Assembly: GCA_000635495.1 (NCBI GenBank)
Contig: JFLW01000001.1
Span: 62,001 to 126,000, forward strand
Reading direction: 5' to 3'
Length of the DNA stretch: 64,000 nt
Origin: Prochlorococcus sp. scB243_495K23
Lineage (GTDB): Bacteria; Cyanobacteriota; Cyanobacteriia; PCC-6307; Cyanobiaceae
In this document: positions 58,375-62,516 of the stretch, in pieces
How positions within the stretch are numbered: the first letter of the stretch is position 1
Layout of the letters: each line of letters starts with the position of its first letter
Made by a program: the position numbers and the translations under genes
The notes under the pieces: model-generated
Told to the model about the DNA's origin: nothing
Databases searched by the model: none
The model's input: only the letters and a program-made list of their open reading frames with translations

Positions 58375-59121
58375 ATGGCTCTATCTAGTCAAACTAAAGA
58401 AACTATACTGGTCGCAGATGACGAGGCAAGTATTAGAAGAATTCTGGAGACACGTCTCTCCATGATTGGCTACAAAGTTGTAACTGCAAGTGATGGTAAA
58501 GAAGCACTAAAGTTATTTAAAGATTATGAACCTGATTTAGTAGTGCTTGACGTCATGATGCCAAAGCTAGATGGATATGGAGTTTGTCAAGAATTAAGGA
58601 AAGATTCTGATGTGCCAATTGTTATGTTAACTGCATTAGGAGATGTCGCAGATAGGATAACAGGTTTAGAATTAGGGGCTGATGATTATGTAGTAAAACC
58701 ATTCAGCCCAAAGGAATTAGAAGCTAGAATTAGGTGTGTTCTTAGAAGAATCGACAAAGAACAAATTCCTGGAATGCCTAATTCAGGATTAATTTTGGTA
58801 ACGGATATAAAAATTGACACAAATCGAAGACAAGTTTTTAAAAGCGATGAGAGAATAAGATTAACTGGAATGGAATTTAGTCTCTTAGAGCTTTTGGTAA
58901 GTAGGTCAGGAGAGCCATTTAGTAGAGGAGAGATCTTGAAAGAAGTTTGGGGATACACCCCCGAGAGGCATGTAGACACGAGAGTCGTGGATGTTCATAT
59001 ATCAAGATTAAGATCAAAACTTGAGGCTGATCCAGCAAATCCTGAATTAATTTTGACAGCAAGGGGTACAGGATATCTTTTTCAACGGATTGTTGATATT
59101 GCACCTTTTGATGGTAAATAA
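58375..59121 (+). CDS. rpaB: Response regulator RpaB
   Basis: A 248-residue OmpR-type regulator, essential in cyanobacteria and known as Ycf27 in algal plastids. Receiver has Asp15-Asp16, phospho-acceptor Asp59 in VVLDVMMPKLDG, TALGD and VKPFSPKELEAR. The winged-helix C-terminus shows RLTGMEFSLLELLVSRSGEP and WGYTPERHVDTRVVDVHISR. RpaB binds HLR1 sites in high-light genes such as hli and is controlled by the kinase NblS, which is not in the window. The stop TAA is directly followed by the ATG of plsX. Confidence 0.94.
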   Translation: MALSSQTKETILVADDEASIRRILETRLSMIGYKVVTASDGKEALKLFKDYEPDLVVLDVMMPKLDGYGVCQELRKDSDVPIVMLTALGDVADRITGLELGADDYVVKPFSPKELEARIRCVLRRIDKEQIPGMPNSGLILVTDIKIDTNRRQVFKSDERIRLTGMEFSLLELLVSRSGEPFSRGEILKEVWGYTPERHVDTRVVDVHISRLRSKLEADPANPELILTARGTGYLFQRIVDIAPFDGK

Positions 59122-60540
59122 ATGGGGAAAGAAACAGCGCAAAAAATTAACAAGTCCAGAGCTATTAGAAGATTAGTTATCTGGTACAAAAGAAATTCAG
59201 CTGTCACTTCAATAGTAGATACTGCTGCTAGTTCTGCCGCAACGGCTAGTAATGTTGCGGGTAATGTTGTTTCTGGTGCTGGTTCTGTTGTGACCACTGC
59301 TAGTAATGTTGCGAGTAATGTTGCAGGTAATGTTGCAGGTAATGTAGTTTCAAGCGCTGAATCTGTTGTGAATACTGCCAGCAGTGTTGTTTCAAATGCT
59401 AGCTCAATAGCGAAAAATACATTACAGCCATTAGTTTTTGACCCATTAAAAAGATTACAAAATAGCGATAATATTTTAGATAAGGTCGAAGACATTCAAT
59501 CTAAAAGAATTTGGATTGCAGTTGATGGTATGGGTGGAGATTATGCTCCCGGTCCAATTCTAGAAGGTTGCCTCGAAGCAATAAGTAGATTCCCAATAAA
59601 TATAAAGTTTGTCGGCAAAATTGAAAAAGTTAAAGATGCAGCAGAAAAAACTGGTTTAGCAGAATTATTAGAAAATGAAATTAATAATAATCGTATTGAA
59701 TTAATTGATAGTGGAGAGCCTATCGGGATGAATGAAGAAGCTACTGCAGTCAGAAAAAGGAAAAATGCAAGTATAAACGTTGCAATGGACTTAGTGAGAA
59801 ATAATAAAGCTGAAGCTGTTTACTCAGCTGGTAATTCAGGTGCCATGATGGCTTCTGCCATATTTAGAATTGGAAGATTGAAAGGGATTGATAGACCAGC
59901 TATAGGAGCATTATTTCCAACAAGGGATCAAACACGCCCAGTATTAGTTTTAGATGTTGGTGCAAATACTGATTGTAAGCCATCTTATCTGCATCAATTT
60001 GCTCTTCTCGGTAATATATATGCAAAAGATGTCTTACAAGTAAAAAAACCAAGAATAGGCCTTCTAAATATTGGAGAAGAAGAATGCAAAGGTAATGAAT
60101 TATCCCTAAAAACATTTGAATTATTATCTTCTGAAAAAAGTTTTGATTTTGGAGGTAATTGTGAAGGGCGAGATGTATTATCAGGTAGCTTCGATGTAGT
60201 AGTCTGTGATGGATTTACTGGAAATATATTATTAAAATTTCTTGAATCTGTGGGAGGAGTTTTATTAGATATTTTGAGATCTGAGCTGCCACGTGGAAGG
60301 CGGGGGAAAGTTGGTTCAGCTTTTTTAAGAAGTAATCTACTCAGAATTAAGAAAAGGTTAGATCATGCCGAACATGGAGGAGCTTTATTACTTGGGGTGA
60401 ATGGTATTTGCGTTATTGGTCATGGAAGTAGCAAATCTTTATCAGTAGTTAGTGCTCTTCGATTGGCTCACTCTGCAGTGAATCATGGTGTTATGGATAA
60501 TTTAAATCAACTGCAAAAGCTTCAAGTTTTAAATTCATAA
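59122..60540 (+). CDS. plsX: Phosphate acyltransferase PlsX with long repetitive N-terminal extension
   Basis: A 472-residue protein. Residues about 129-472 are PlsX (RIWIAVDGMGGDYAPGP, the GADGAMMAS-like SAGNSGAMMAS, and GGALLLGVNGICVIGHGSS), which converts acyl-ACP to acyl-phosphate for PlsY. Residues 1-128 are an added segment: a basic helix (KSRAIRRLVIWYKRN) then about 70 residues of Val/Ala/Ser/Asn/Gly repeats on an 11-residue period (such as TASNVASNVAG), then a linker. Its ATG directly follows the rpaB stop. PlsX in most bacteria is about 330-350 residues, so the extension is additional and is continuous in frame with no internal start clearly better. Confidence 0.93.
   Translation: MGKETAQKINKSRAIRRLVIWYKRNSAVTSIVDTAASSAATASNVAGNVVSGAGSVVTTASNVASNVAGNVAGNVVSSAESVVNTASSVVSNASSIAKNTLQPLVFDPLKRLQNSDNILDKVEDIQSKRIWIAVDGMGGDYAPGPILEGCLEAISRFPINIKFVGKIEKVKDAAEKTGLAELLENEINNNRIELIDSGEPIGMNEEATAVRKRKNASINVAMDLVRNNKAEAVYSAGNSGAMMASAIFRIGRLKGIDRPAIGALFPTRDQTRPVLVLDVGANTDCKPSYLHQFALLGNIYAKDVLQVKKPRIGLLNIGEEECKGNELSLKTFELLSSEKSFDFGGNCEGRDVLSGSFDVVVCDGFTGNILLKFLESVGGVLLDILRSELPRGRRGKVGSAFLRSNLLRIKKRLDHAEHGGALLLGVNGICVIGHGSSKSLSVVSALRLAHSAVNHGVMDNLNQLQKLQVLNS
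59209..59427 (+). repeat. Degenerate tandem repeat encoding 11-residue amphipathic units in PlsX
   Basis: The DNA contains an exact 15-base repeat, GCTAGTAATGTTGCG, at 59245-59259 and 59299-59313 (54 bases apart), and an exact 12-base tandem AATGTTGCAGGT at 59317-59328 and 59329-59340. These underlie protein repeats of TASNVAGNVVS, TASNVASNVAG, NVAGNVVSSAE and SVVNTASSVVS type. The array looks like expansion by slippage, so copy number may vary among strains. Confidence 0.75.
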
Positions 60541-60593: not shown

Positions 60594-61601
60594 TTGGAAG
60601 GAATAAATTTTAATCAGATTGGAGTGTCATTCAAGGGAAGTGGAAGTTATGTACCTGATCAAATCCTAACCAATCAAAAAATTAGTCAAAAGGTTGATAC
60701 AAGCAATGAATGGATACAATCTAGAACTGGTATTTCTGAGAGAAGAATCTCGAGCGTAGAAGATAATGTTACCGAGATGGGTTATAAGGCTGCTCTAACT
60801 GCTATAGAAATGGCTAATTGGGATATTAAAACGATTGATTTGATTGTTTTAGCTACTTCTACTCCGCATGATTTATTTGGATCAGCCCCCTCTATTCAAG
60901 CTAAATTAGGTGCAGCTAATGCTGTAGCTTTCGATTTAACTGCAGCTTGTAGTGGCTTTTTATTTGCCTTAATAACAGCTTCACAATTTTTAAAAGGGGG
61001 TAGTTTTAAAAGGGCTATTGTTATTGGAGCAGATCAATTATCAAGTTTTGTTGATTGGAATGATAGAAGAAGTTGTATTCTCTTTGGAGATGGTGCCGGT
61101 GCATTAGCAATTGAAGCCACAAATGAATTTGATAATTTTATAGGTTTTGATATGAGAACTGATGGGGGGAGGGGTTCTTTTCTTAATCTTCCATCAAAAA
61201 ATAATAAGGATTCAATAGTCGATGAAATTGACTTTTTAAGTGGAGGTTTTTCTCCAATTCAGATGAATGGTCAGGAAGTTTATAAATTCGCAGTTAAAGA
61301 AGTCCCCCTAATTCTTCAAAAGTTGTTGAAAAAAATGAATTACAATTCTAATCAAGTTGATTGGCTCTTGTTGCATCAAGCTAATCAAAGAATATTGGAT
61401 TCTGTAGGAGAAAGGTTAAAAATTCCCAGAGAAAAGATTCTTAGCAATTTAGAAAAATATGGCAATACGTCAGCAGCAACAATTCCACTAATGATGGATG
61501 AGGCTGTAAGAGATTATAGAATTAAACAAAATGATATTATTGCTACAAGTGGTTTCGGTGCTGGGCTAAGTTGGGGTGCAGCCCTAATTAAATGGGGTTA
61601 A
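60594..61601 (+). CDS. fabH: 3-oxoacyl-ACP synthase III
   Basis: A 335-residue thiolase-fold enzyme that condenses acetyl-CoA with malonyl-ACP to start fatty acid synthesis. The catalytic cysteine is Cys119 in DLTAACSGFLFAL; the histidine is in LLHQANQRILDSVGE and the asparagine in KYGNTSAATIPLMM. The start is TTG 53 bases after plsX. Normal length, and the GFGAGLSWGAALI motif closes it. Confidence 0.95.
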   Translation: MEGINFNQIGVSFKGSGSYVPDQILTNQKISQKVDTSNEWIQSRTGISERRISSVEDNVTEMGYKAALTAIEMANWDIKTIDLIVLATSTPHDLFGSAPSIQAKLGAANAVAFDLTAACSGFLFALITASQFLKGGSFKRAIVIGADQLSSFVDWNDRRSCILFGDGAGALAIEATNEFDNFIGFDMRTDGGRGSFLNLPSKNNKDSIVDEIDFLSGGFSPIQMNGQEVYKFAVKEVPLILQKLLKKMNYNSNQVDWLLLHQANQRILDSVGERLKIPREKILSNLEKYGNTSAATIPLMMDEAVRDYRIKQNDIIATSGFGAGLSWGAALIKWG

Positions 61602-61619
61602 AAACAAAATAGGATCATT

Positions 61620-62516
61620 ATGACAGTTGCATGGGTATTCCCTGGACAGGGTTCGCAAAAAATTGGAATGGCAAAACAAATAGAAAATCTGCCGATCACA
61701 AAAGAGAGGTTTGGTTATGCTTCTGAGATATTTGAGAGAAATTTATTTGAAATTTGTGAATTAAATACTGAGCCAACAAATCCCCTTCTTGATCTAAATA
61801 ACACAAGAAATACACAAATTTGTCTTTTTTTAGTTGAATCAATTTTATTAGATGCATTAAAGGAAAATGGGTTTAAACCAACTTATGTTGCAGGACATAG
61901 TCTTGGAGAAATCACTGCACTTTATTGTGCGGATGTTTTTTCATTCGAAGATTGTGTTTATCTTATAAAAGAAAGGTCTCAATTAATGGTCAATGCTGGG
62001 AAAGGATCTATGGCAGCAGTAATTGGTTTTGATAGAAATCAACTTGATTTATTAGTGCAAAAAATAGATGATATTGTAATTGCTAATGATAATAGCTCTT
62101 CCCAAGTTGTCTTATCAGGATCTACTGAAGCCTTAGATAATTTATCGAGAGAAATTGCTTGTAAAAGATTCTTGAAATTAAATGTTTCAGGAGCATTTCA
62201 TTCGCCATTTATGAATGAACCTTCATCAAAATTTTGTGAATATTTAAAAAAGATTAAATTTAACAATCCCTCTTTCCCTGTAATAAGTAATTATGAACCT
62301 TCACTGTGTAGCGATCCAAACGAGCTTAAAATTAGATTAGAAAAGCAAATGTGCAATGGAGTGAGGTGGCGAGAAACTATGGATTTAATGGCAAAAGATA
62401 GTGATCTTCATATTGTCGAAATTGGCCCTTCTAATGTACTAAGCGGTTTAGGAAAAAGACATCTTAAAGATGTAAAAATTTCTCAAGTTTCATCTTCTGA
62501 TCAAATATCTTATTAA
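61620..62516 (+). CDS. fabD: Malonyl-CoA:ACP transacylase
   Basis: A 298-residue acyltransferase that loads malonyl groups on ACP. FPGQGSQKIGM is the N-terminal motif, GHSLGEITAL holds the nucleophile Ser94, and GAFHSPFMNEP contains the partner His about 100 residues later. The GSMAAVIGF stretch and the late EIGPSNVLSGLG motif complete the family. It begins 18 bases after fabH and should be cotranscribed with it and with plsC. Confidence 0.95.
   Translation: MTVAWVFPGQGSQKIGMAKQIENLPITKERFGYASEIFERNLFEICELNTEPTNPLLDLNNTRNTQICLFLVESILLDALKENGFKPTYVAGHSLGEITALYCADVFSFEDCVYLIKERSQLMVNAGKGSMAAVIGFDRNQLDLLVQKIDDIVIANDNSSSQVVLSGSTEALDNLSREIACKRFLKLNVSGAFHSPFMNEPSSKFCEYLKKIKFNNPSFPVISNYEPSLCSDPNELKIRLEKQMCNGVRWRETMDLMAKDSDLHIVEIGPSNVLSGLGKRHLKDVKISQVSSSDQISY

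Follow-up and report, generated by a model that had tools for sequence, protein, structure and literature searches.

The PlsX protein encoded in the window (the whole 64,000-nucleotide stretch of DNA that was analysed) carries a 128-residue N-terminal extension. This extension is genuine and conserved, and its translation is almost certain. Among the genomes searched it was confined to the GTDB family of Prochlorococcus, and in that family the hairpin tip of the PlsX core has an arginine at a position that is nearly always hydrophobic in other cyanobacteria. We read the extension as a putative membrane-docking arm that took over the hydrophobic part of PlsX membrane attachment in this picocyanobacterial family; on the sequence evidence set out below, the chances that this reading is right seem to us evenly balanced.

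The plsX locus

The features referred to in the text are the following, all in window coordinates.

58375-59121, plus strand: rpaB response regulator, directly upstream of plsX (NF045944 RpaB)
59122-60540, plus strand: plsX, encoding a 472-aa phosphate acyltransferase extended at its N terminus (PF02504, NF010419/PRK13845)
59155-59196, plus strand: basic/aromatic motif SRAIRRLVIWYKRN, predicted helix, residues 12-25 (family pattern, charge, pN/pS)
59197-59421, plus strand: neutral, weakly amphipathic repeat, predicted helix, residues 26-100 (99-degree peak, lags, pN/pS)
59298-59345, plus strand: 12-base tandem, 4 copies (Tandem Repeats Finder, length classes)
59422-59460, plus strand: LQPLVFDPLKRLQ motif, residues 101-113 (end pattern, pN/pS)
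59461-59505, plus strand: variable linker to the core, residues 114-128 (pN/pS 0.375)
60286-60327, plus strand: tip of the helical hairpin of the core, LPRGRRGKVGSAFL, residues 389-402 (gap-free alignment to PDB 6A1K)

The gene product belongs to PlsX by its Pfam domain PF02504, which begins at residue 132 (E 1.1e-101; 340.6 bits against a curated cut-off of 29.1), by TIGR00182 (364.4 bits, curated cut-off 243.4) and by NCBIfam PRK13845/NF010419 (886.5 bits, cut-off 729). The PRK13845 model, of 440 positions, takes in the N-terminal extension, with residues 2-67 of the protein lying on model positions 3-68. Because this model covers the N-terminal part, the extension is already recorded in a curated family. 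The name and description of PRK13845, as returned, are silent on the role and structure of the extension, on its helical pattern and on the residue at the tip, and among the matches listed in a search of open-access literature on PlsX there was no title on the extension. The tip change in the family is new here, beside the already modelled extension.

Directly upstream lies rpaB (385 bits with the NF045944 RpaB profile, cut-off 330), and the ATG of plsX abuts its stop codon in the window. The distance from the rpaB stop to the basic motif of plsX was 19-57 bases in 205/205 family loci measured, 4 of the 209 family loci being omitted because they have no basic motif. One locus outside the family (L207) also has rpaB, but its PlsX is without the extension. 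For many family members the only possible plsX start codon is TTG or GTG, and plsX and the 3' end of rpaB would then overlap. The ORFs that follow plsX at 60594-62516 look by eye like fabH and fabD, and we take the region to be a fatty-acid/phospholipid gene cluster; PlsY is encoded in the same genome. An antisense ORF of 137 aa (59082-59495, minus strand) overlies the extension. Stop-free antisense frames over the repeat were near-general (63/63 Prochlorococcus-like stretches and 62/63 other stretches), so this ORF is explained by codon make-up alone.

Layout of the extension

The first-pass annotation had proposed a 128-residue extension with a basic helix ahead of a repeat. Residues 1-128 do precede the core, the peptides quoted from the extension are present in the translation, and the basic segment was placed at residues 12-25. 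The layout runs from the basic/aromatic RAIRRLVIWYKRN through a neutral predicted helix of variable length, with V/A on one face and S/T/N/G on the other, to the near-invariant LQPLVFDPLKRLQ, a loose linker and the PlsX core. Net charge was +5 to +6 in 18-residue windows starting at residues 1-13. Among 178 distinct family extensions, the basic motif pattern was found in 174 and the LQPLVFDPLKRLQ end pattern in 171, the two patterns missing 4 and 7, respectively. The interval between these flanking motifs ranges from 31 to 100 residues across the family.

AF2 gave a pLDDT of 78 for residues 11-20 when the extension was modelled by itself, about 47-50 over the repeat in the same kind of model, and 29-49 for the extension in the full model. 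A confident fold for the extension was dropped as a candidate, both AF2 runs being of low confidence over it. The low-confidence helices that AF2 draws over the arm would be expected for a segment that folds only on a surface, and equally for disorder.

Repeat units and length alleles

The repeat had been described as an array on an 11-residue period. This did not hold: residue identity at lag 11 was 10/64 (0.16 vs 0.17 expected), a value reached by 2939 of 5000 shuffles, i.e. at chance, and on this lag analysis an 11-mer unit was rejected. At lags 4, 7, 18 and 26 identity was 0.32, 0.31, 0.32 and 0.41, values reached by 0, 8, 13 and 0 of 5000 shuffles, respectively. The array is composed of 4-residue (VA..) and 7-residue (VV..A..) modules. 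The underlying DNA repeats were found as described: a 15-base exact repeat is located at 59245 and 59299, 54 bases apart, and Tandem Repeats Finder returned the 12-base tandem at 59298-59345 in 4 copies. This tandem is the likely source of 4-residue length alleles.

Variation in repeat number, which had also been anticipated, was evident from the length classes among relatives. In 81 close loci (the copy in the window and 80 others, 6 of them titled Synechococcaceae and the rest Prochlorococcus), the extension was 124 aa long in 37, 128 in 42, 132 in 1 and 146 in 1. Length therefore changes in steps of 4 and 18 residues, not 11.

Helical periodicity and amphipathicity

The helical pitch claimed for the hydrophobic pattern was confirmed, with a peak at 99 degrees per residue (3.64 residues per turn), although a 75-residue stretch is too short to tell 11/3 from 18/5. 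The peak was the same on three hydrophobicity scales and was reached by 0/2000 shuffles and by 0/2516 75-residue windows from the 45 ORFs of at least 200 aa in the window, with the extension of PlsX itself cut away. V, A and I fall on one helix face, and N, S, G and T with the few charges fall on the opposite face. The pattern is family-wide: after removal of duplicates and of stretches shorter than 30 aa, 125/126 distinct repeat stretches peaked at 95-105 degrees, and the pattern held at third-position GC contents from 0.04 to 0.98. The 20 distinct lengths of the interval between the flanking motifs are also in helical register with one another (R 0.67; 0/20000 random sets), a statistic to be read with the caveat that tandem duplication of a periodic sequence favours register by itself and that co-inherited lengths are not independent.

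The repeat has no aromatic residues, a charged fraction of 0.04, a hydrophobic fraction of 0.45 and, taken as a whole, a hydrophobic moment at the 3-11 angle of 0.258. The lipid-binding discriminant D, for which the usual threshold in such scans is about 0.68, was about -0.1 to 0.3 in 18-residue windows in mid-repeat and about 2 at the basic motif. Since the repeat alone is weak by such HeliQuest-type measures, primary contact is more likely to be made by the conserved basic motif.

Selection on the extension

The repeat is under purifying selection near the level of the core. In the 81 close loci, pN/pS was 0.170 for residues 1-11, 0.081 for the basic motif, 0.089 for repeat residues 39-96 (indels in the repeat alignment add some uncertainty to this value), 0.375 for the linker and 0.062 for the core. 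The lowest value among the segments compared was 0.007, for residues 97-113, which hold LQPLVFDPLKRLQ.

Distribution in cyanobacteria

PRK13845 scored over its cut-off in 58/386 cyanobacterial genomes, a set that coincides with the 58 genomes from the window's GTDB family. Among the matches listed, none from another family begins before model position 79. A profile built from the extension alignment matched only plsX of the window's family (6/146 genomes) and nothing in the 140 cyanobacterial genomes outside it. Within the window's own genome no further extension-like module turned up, even with E values as high as 10 allowed; Pfam gave sub-threshold matches only over the extension, and a PDB profile search gave weak matches only (best E 0.045). 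With the own-genome, 140-genome, Pfam and PDB searches all without such a match, we rejected a separate module common to other proteins.

When the core alone was used as query in 399 genomes of the order, PlsX was found in 373; the 26 genomes without a match include 5 of the 269 best-quality genomes. Every genome among the matches listed belongs to the window's family, and the ORFs were mostly 429-490 aa. Relatives that start at the PlsX core, named by the first-pass annotation as the case that would speak against the extension, were not seen among the matches listed and inspected. For G546, G703 and G689, the copy sits at the start of a contig. The short copies away from contig ends were those of G583 (L172; 356 aa) and G693 (L173; 407 aa), both from single-contig assemblies; in each the extension is present but broken by frameshifts, and clean loss of the extension was rejected as an explanation. 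These frameshifts are probably read errors in the repeat. G529 was also considered as a broken copy, and this too was rejected: its core has a masked stretch, and its Arg-rich N-terminal stretch is retained.

Deep members of the family differ in the arm. L164 and L167-L170 have the basic motif and no repeat, and in genera g149 (L171, L308, L309) and g158 (L307) an Arg-rich RRIRRIRRL replaces the basic motif and there is no V/A repeat. These last four may represent the state from which the arm began. In a tree of 59 rows chosen from 272 loci, the split between the family and the outside was supported 100/100, the deep inner forks were partly unresolved, and L171 was on a long branch.

The hairpin tip of the PlsX core

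The tip region was extracted by BLAST from 272/272 loci. By gap-free alignment to 6A1K, Arg393 of the window protein (60298-60300) occupies the position of Leu254 in B. subtilis PlsX. This position is Arg in 209/209 family loci (184/184 distinct cores, some genomes being counted more than once among the loci), and also in G529. In other cyanobacterial PlsX it is L, I, W, V or M in 62/63, with Trp in 13 and Thr in the single exception (L228). A further 24 relatives in the phylum, from 25 genomes of which one (G018) gave no usable match, had a bulky hydrophobic residue in 21 and A, P or S in 3, with none charged, the distant tips being aligned less surely; the three with A, P or S have no PlsX extension. 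E. faecalis PlsX has Val at this position in the alignment. The core tip has become PRGRRGK in place of PxG[L/I/W]xG, and with Arg393 the window protein does not have the bulky hydrophobic tip anchor of the Bacillus type.

In B. subtilis, a nine-residue helix at the hairpin tip attaches PlsX to the membrane (PMC6702220). The same study reports that PlsX becomes cytosolic with L254A, L254D, L258A or L258S and mostly so with L254W, that K257A and T255W slow growth, and that L254E, L258E and A261D leave localisation unchanged, for which the authors invoke snorkelling; they also describe the tip as poorly conserved outside Bacillus (PMC6702220). As summarised in a review, Glu mutants of the hairpin loop lose liposome co-sedimentation and still bind phosphatidylglycerol, though only superficially (PMC10146087). 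The B. subtilis rules are not directly transferable, because L254W is mostly cytosolic there, yet Trp is common at this position in cyanobacteria. Arg393 may weaken rather than abolish tip contact, since the long charged side chain of L254E is tolerated, and the side chain of Arg, likewise long and able to snorkel, could leave tip binding in place.

The arginine tip also occurs without the repeat, in L164 and L167-L170, which keep the basic motif, and in L171 and L307, which have the Arg-rich stretch. The repeat is therefore not needed for the tip change. Gain of the arm and change of the tip both map to the single family branch, so their coincidence is one event and not a statistical association.

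A proposed membrane-docking arm and its alternatives

The first-pass annotation had suggested a lipid-sensing or membrane-docking tail. We retain membrane docking as the best reading, given the family-wide amphipathicity, the purifying selection and the tip change, and we drop the 11-mer as its unit. Lipid sensing was not supported, and we found no evidence for it. As the family gained an arm and lost a hydrophobic tip residue, the anchor may have moved. In the mechanism that we propose, the basic, Trp/Tyr-containing helix at residues 12-25 would bind the anionic membrane surface, and the neutral 75-residue helix would then lie along that surface through its weak Val/Ala face, making many small contacts. 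LQPLVFDPLKRLQ would terminate the helix and set a fixed relation to the core, whose tip, PRGRRGK, would make a mainly electrostatic contact. Attachment would be at two points, the electrostatic tip and an N-terminal arm giving hydrophobic contact, with two arms per enzyme because PlsX is a dimer. PlsX would in this way be kept beside PlsY, and acyl-phosphate would not need to cross the cytosol. The hydrophobic contact would have shifted from the core tip to the N-terminal arm, first to the basic helix and later to the repeat helix.

A fuller history is doubtful, and we put it forward tentatively. In it, Arg replaced the hydrophobic tip residue while the basic helix arose at the rpaB-plsX junction; a perilipin-like helix built by slippage was then added and became longest in Prochlorococcus, and the minisatellite would now tune the membrane tie of phospholipid synthesis. 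If true, this would amount to a natural experiment, with a membrane anchor of known structure abandoned and a new one grown instead. It would also provide a bacterial counterpart of the weak, long amphipathic helices of the perilipin type, with natural length variants for testing, and a handle on the hand-over of acyl-phosphate from PlsX to PlsY. Ocean phototrophs of the Prochlorococcus type are very abundant, and their membranes are poor in phospholipid.

In a serious rival reading, if on balance an unlikely one, the conserved motifs serve to dock a protein. Under this alternative, RAIRRLVIWYRRN and LQPLVFDPLRRLQ would bind PlsY, acyl carrier protein, a fatty-acid synthase enzyme or a thylakoid protein, with the repeat as a stiff, helical spacer whose length can be tuned. 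The near-absence of amino acid change in LQPLVFDPLKRLQ and the invariant alignment columns make the flanking motifs more sequence-specific than lipid binding requires, the distance between them varies more than threefold with register kept, and the deep members have the first motif and no repeat. A mere spacer would need neither the purifying selection nor the hydrophobic face seen in the repeat, however, and basic/aromatic composition, such as that of the first motif, is typical of interfacial helices.

Helical oligomerisation, in which the Val/Ala faces of arms within or between PlsX dimers pack as a small-residue bundle, appears improbable to us. Where 4-residue modules follow one another, the VA..VA.. 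pattern drifts round the helix, with breaks at variable positions, and sequence relatives in the PDB are limited to the weak ones noted above. A period near 3.64 would nevertheless suit lipid and hendecad-type packing equally, small residues permit close packing, and AF2 draws long helices, from single-chain runs that are blind to dimers.

The extension could also be a functionless by-product of slippage, in which a 12-base minisatellite grew within a disordered tail that tolerated it. The tandem, the length alleles and the low AF2 confidence fit such an origin, but the selection and periodicity results largely refute it and leave it very unlikely: pN/pS in the repeat is near that of the core, the same helical pattern is seen across nearly the whole range of third-position GC, and the frame is intact in the family loci inspected, save the two frameshifted single-contig assemblies and the contig-end copies. 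That the extension is untranslated, with a start at or near the core, is scarcely credible: many relatives need a TTG or GTG start, which makes their start annotation unsure, and the window has two in-frame GTG codons inside the repeat (residues 57 and 83), but there is no in-frame ATG, GTG or TTG between residue 83 and Met137, inside the core, codon-level purifying selection runs from residue 1 on, and the curated family model takes in the extension.

Comparison with known systems

The tip of the window protein and that of B. subtilis PlsX (residues 253-261, PDB 6A1K) share the same fold position and align without gaps, with Lys257 kept and Leu258 replaced by Val. They differ in that Leu254 and Thr255 are both Arg in the window protein, and the solved B. 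subtilis chain has no N-terminal extension, the alignment starting at its residue 3.

Sensors of the ALPS type carry bulky hydrophobic residues (F, W, L) on an uncharged helix rich in S, T and G. The PlsX repeat resembles them in its near-absence of charge (4%), but I, L, M, F, W and Y make up 2.7% of it and aromatics 0, so it does not have the composition of such a packing-defect sensor.

Alpha-synuclein has a true 11-mer repeat. Its N-terminal region spans 89 residues with a hydrophobic fraction of 0.47 and a charged fraction of 0.24 (PMC5889406). The putative PlsX arm would be like it as a long, surface-lying amphipathic helix of similar length and hydrophobic fraction (0.47 vs 0.45 here), and unlike it in that both the 0.24 charged fraction and the 11-mer are absent.

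The giant amphipathic helix of perilipin 4 has 968 residues, a moment of 0.257 (mean over helices), an aromatic fraction of 0.002 and a charged fraction of 0.15 (PMC5889406). The PlsX repeat shares with it a weak moment (0.257 vs 0.258 here, computed differently), almost no aromatics and a repetitive sequence. It differs in having no 11-residue unit, much less charge (0.04 vs 0.15), 75 vs 968 residues and a strongly basic helix ahead of the repeat, and we claim no homology. Because 66 residues of perilipin 4 by themselves stayed entirely in the cytosol (PMC5889406), the arm would probably act only through its basic helix together with dimer avidity. Set against the class of 3-11 helices to which synuclein and perilipin belong, the PlsX repeat is without the 11-residue sequence unit but, with a period of about 98-100 degrees per residue, does share their hydrophobic face.
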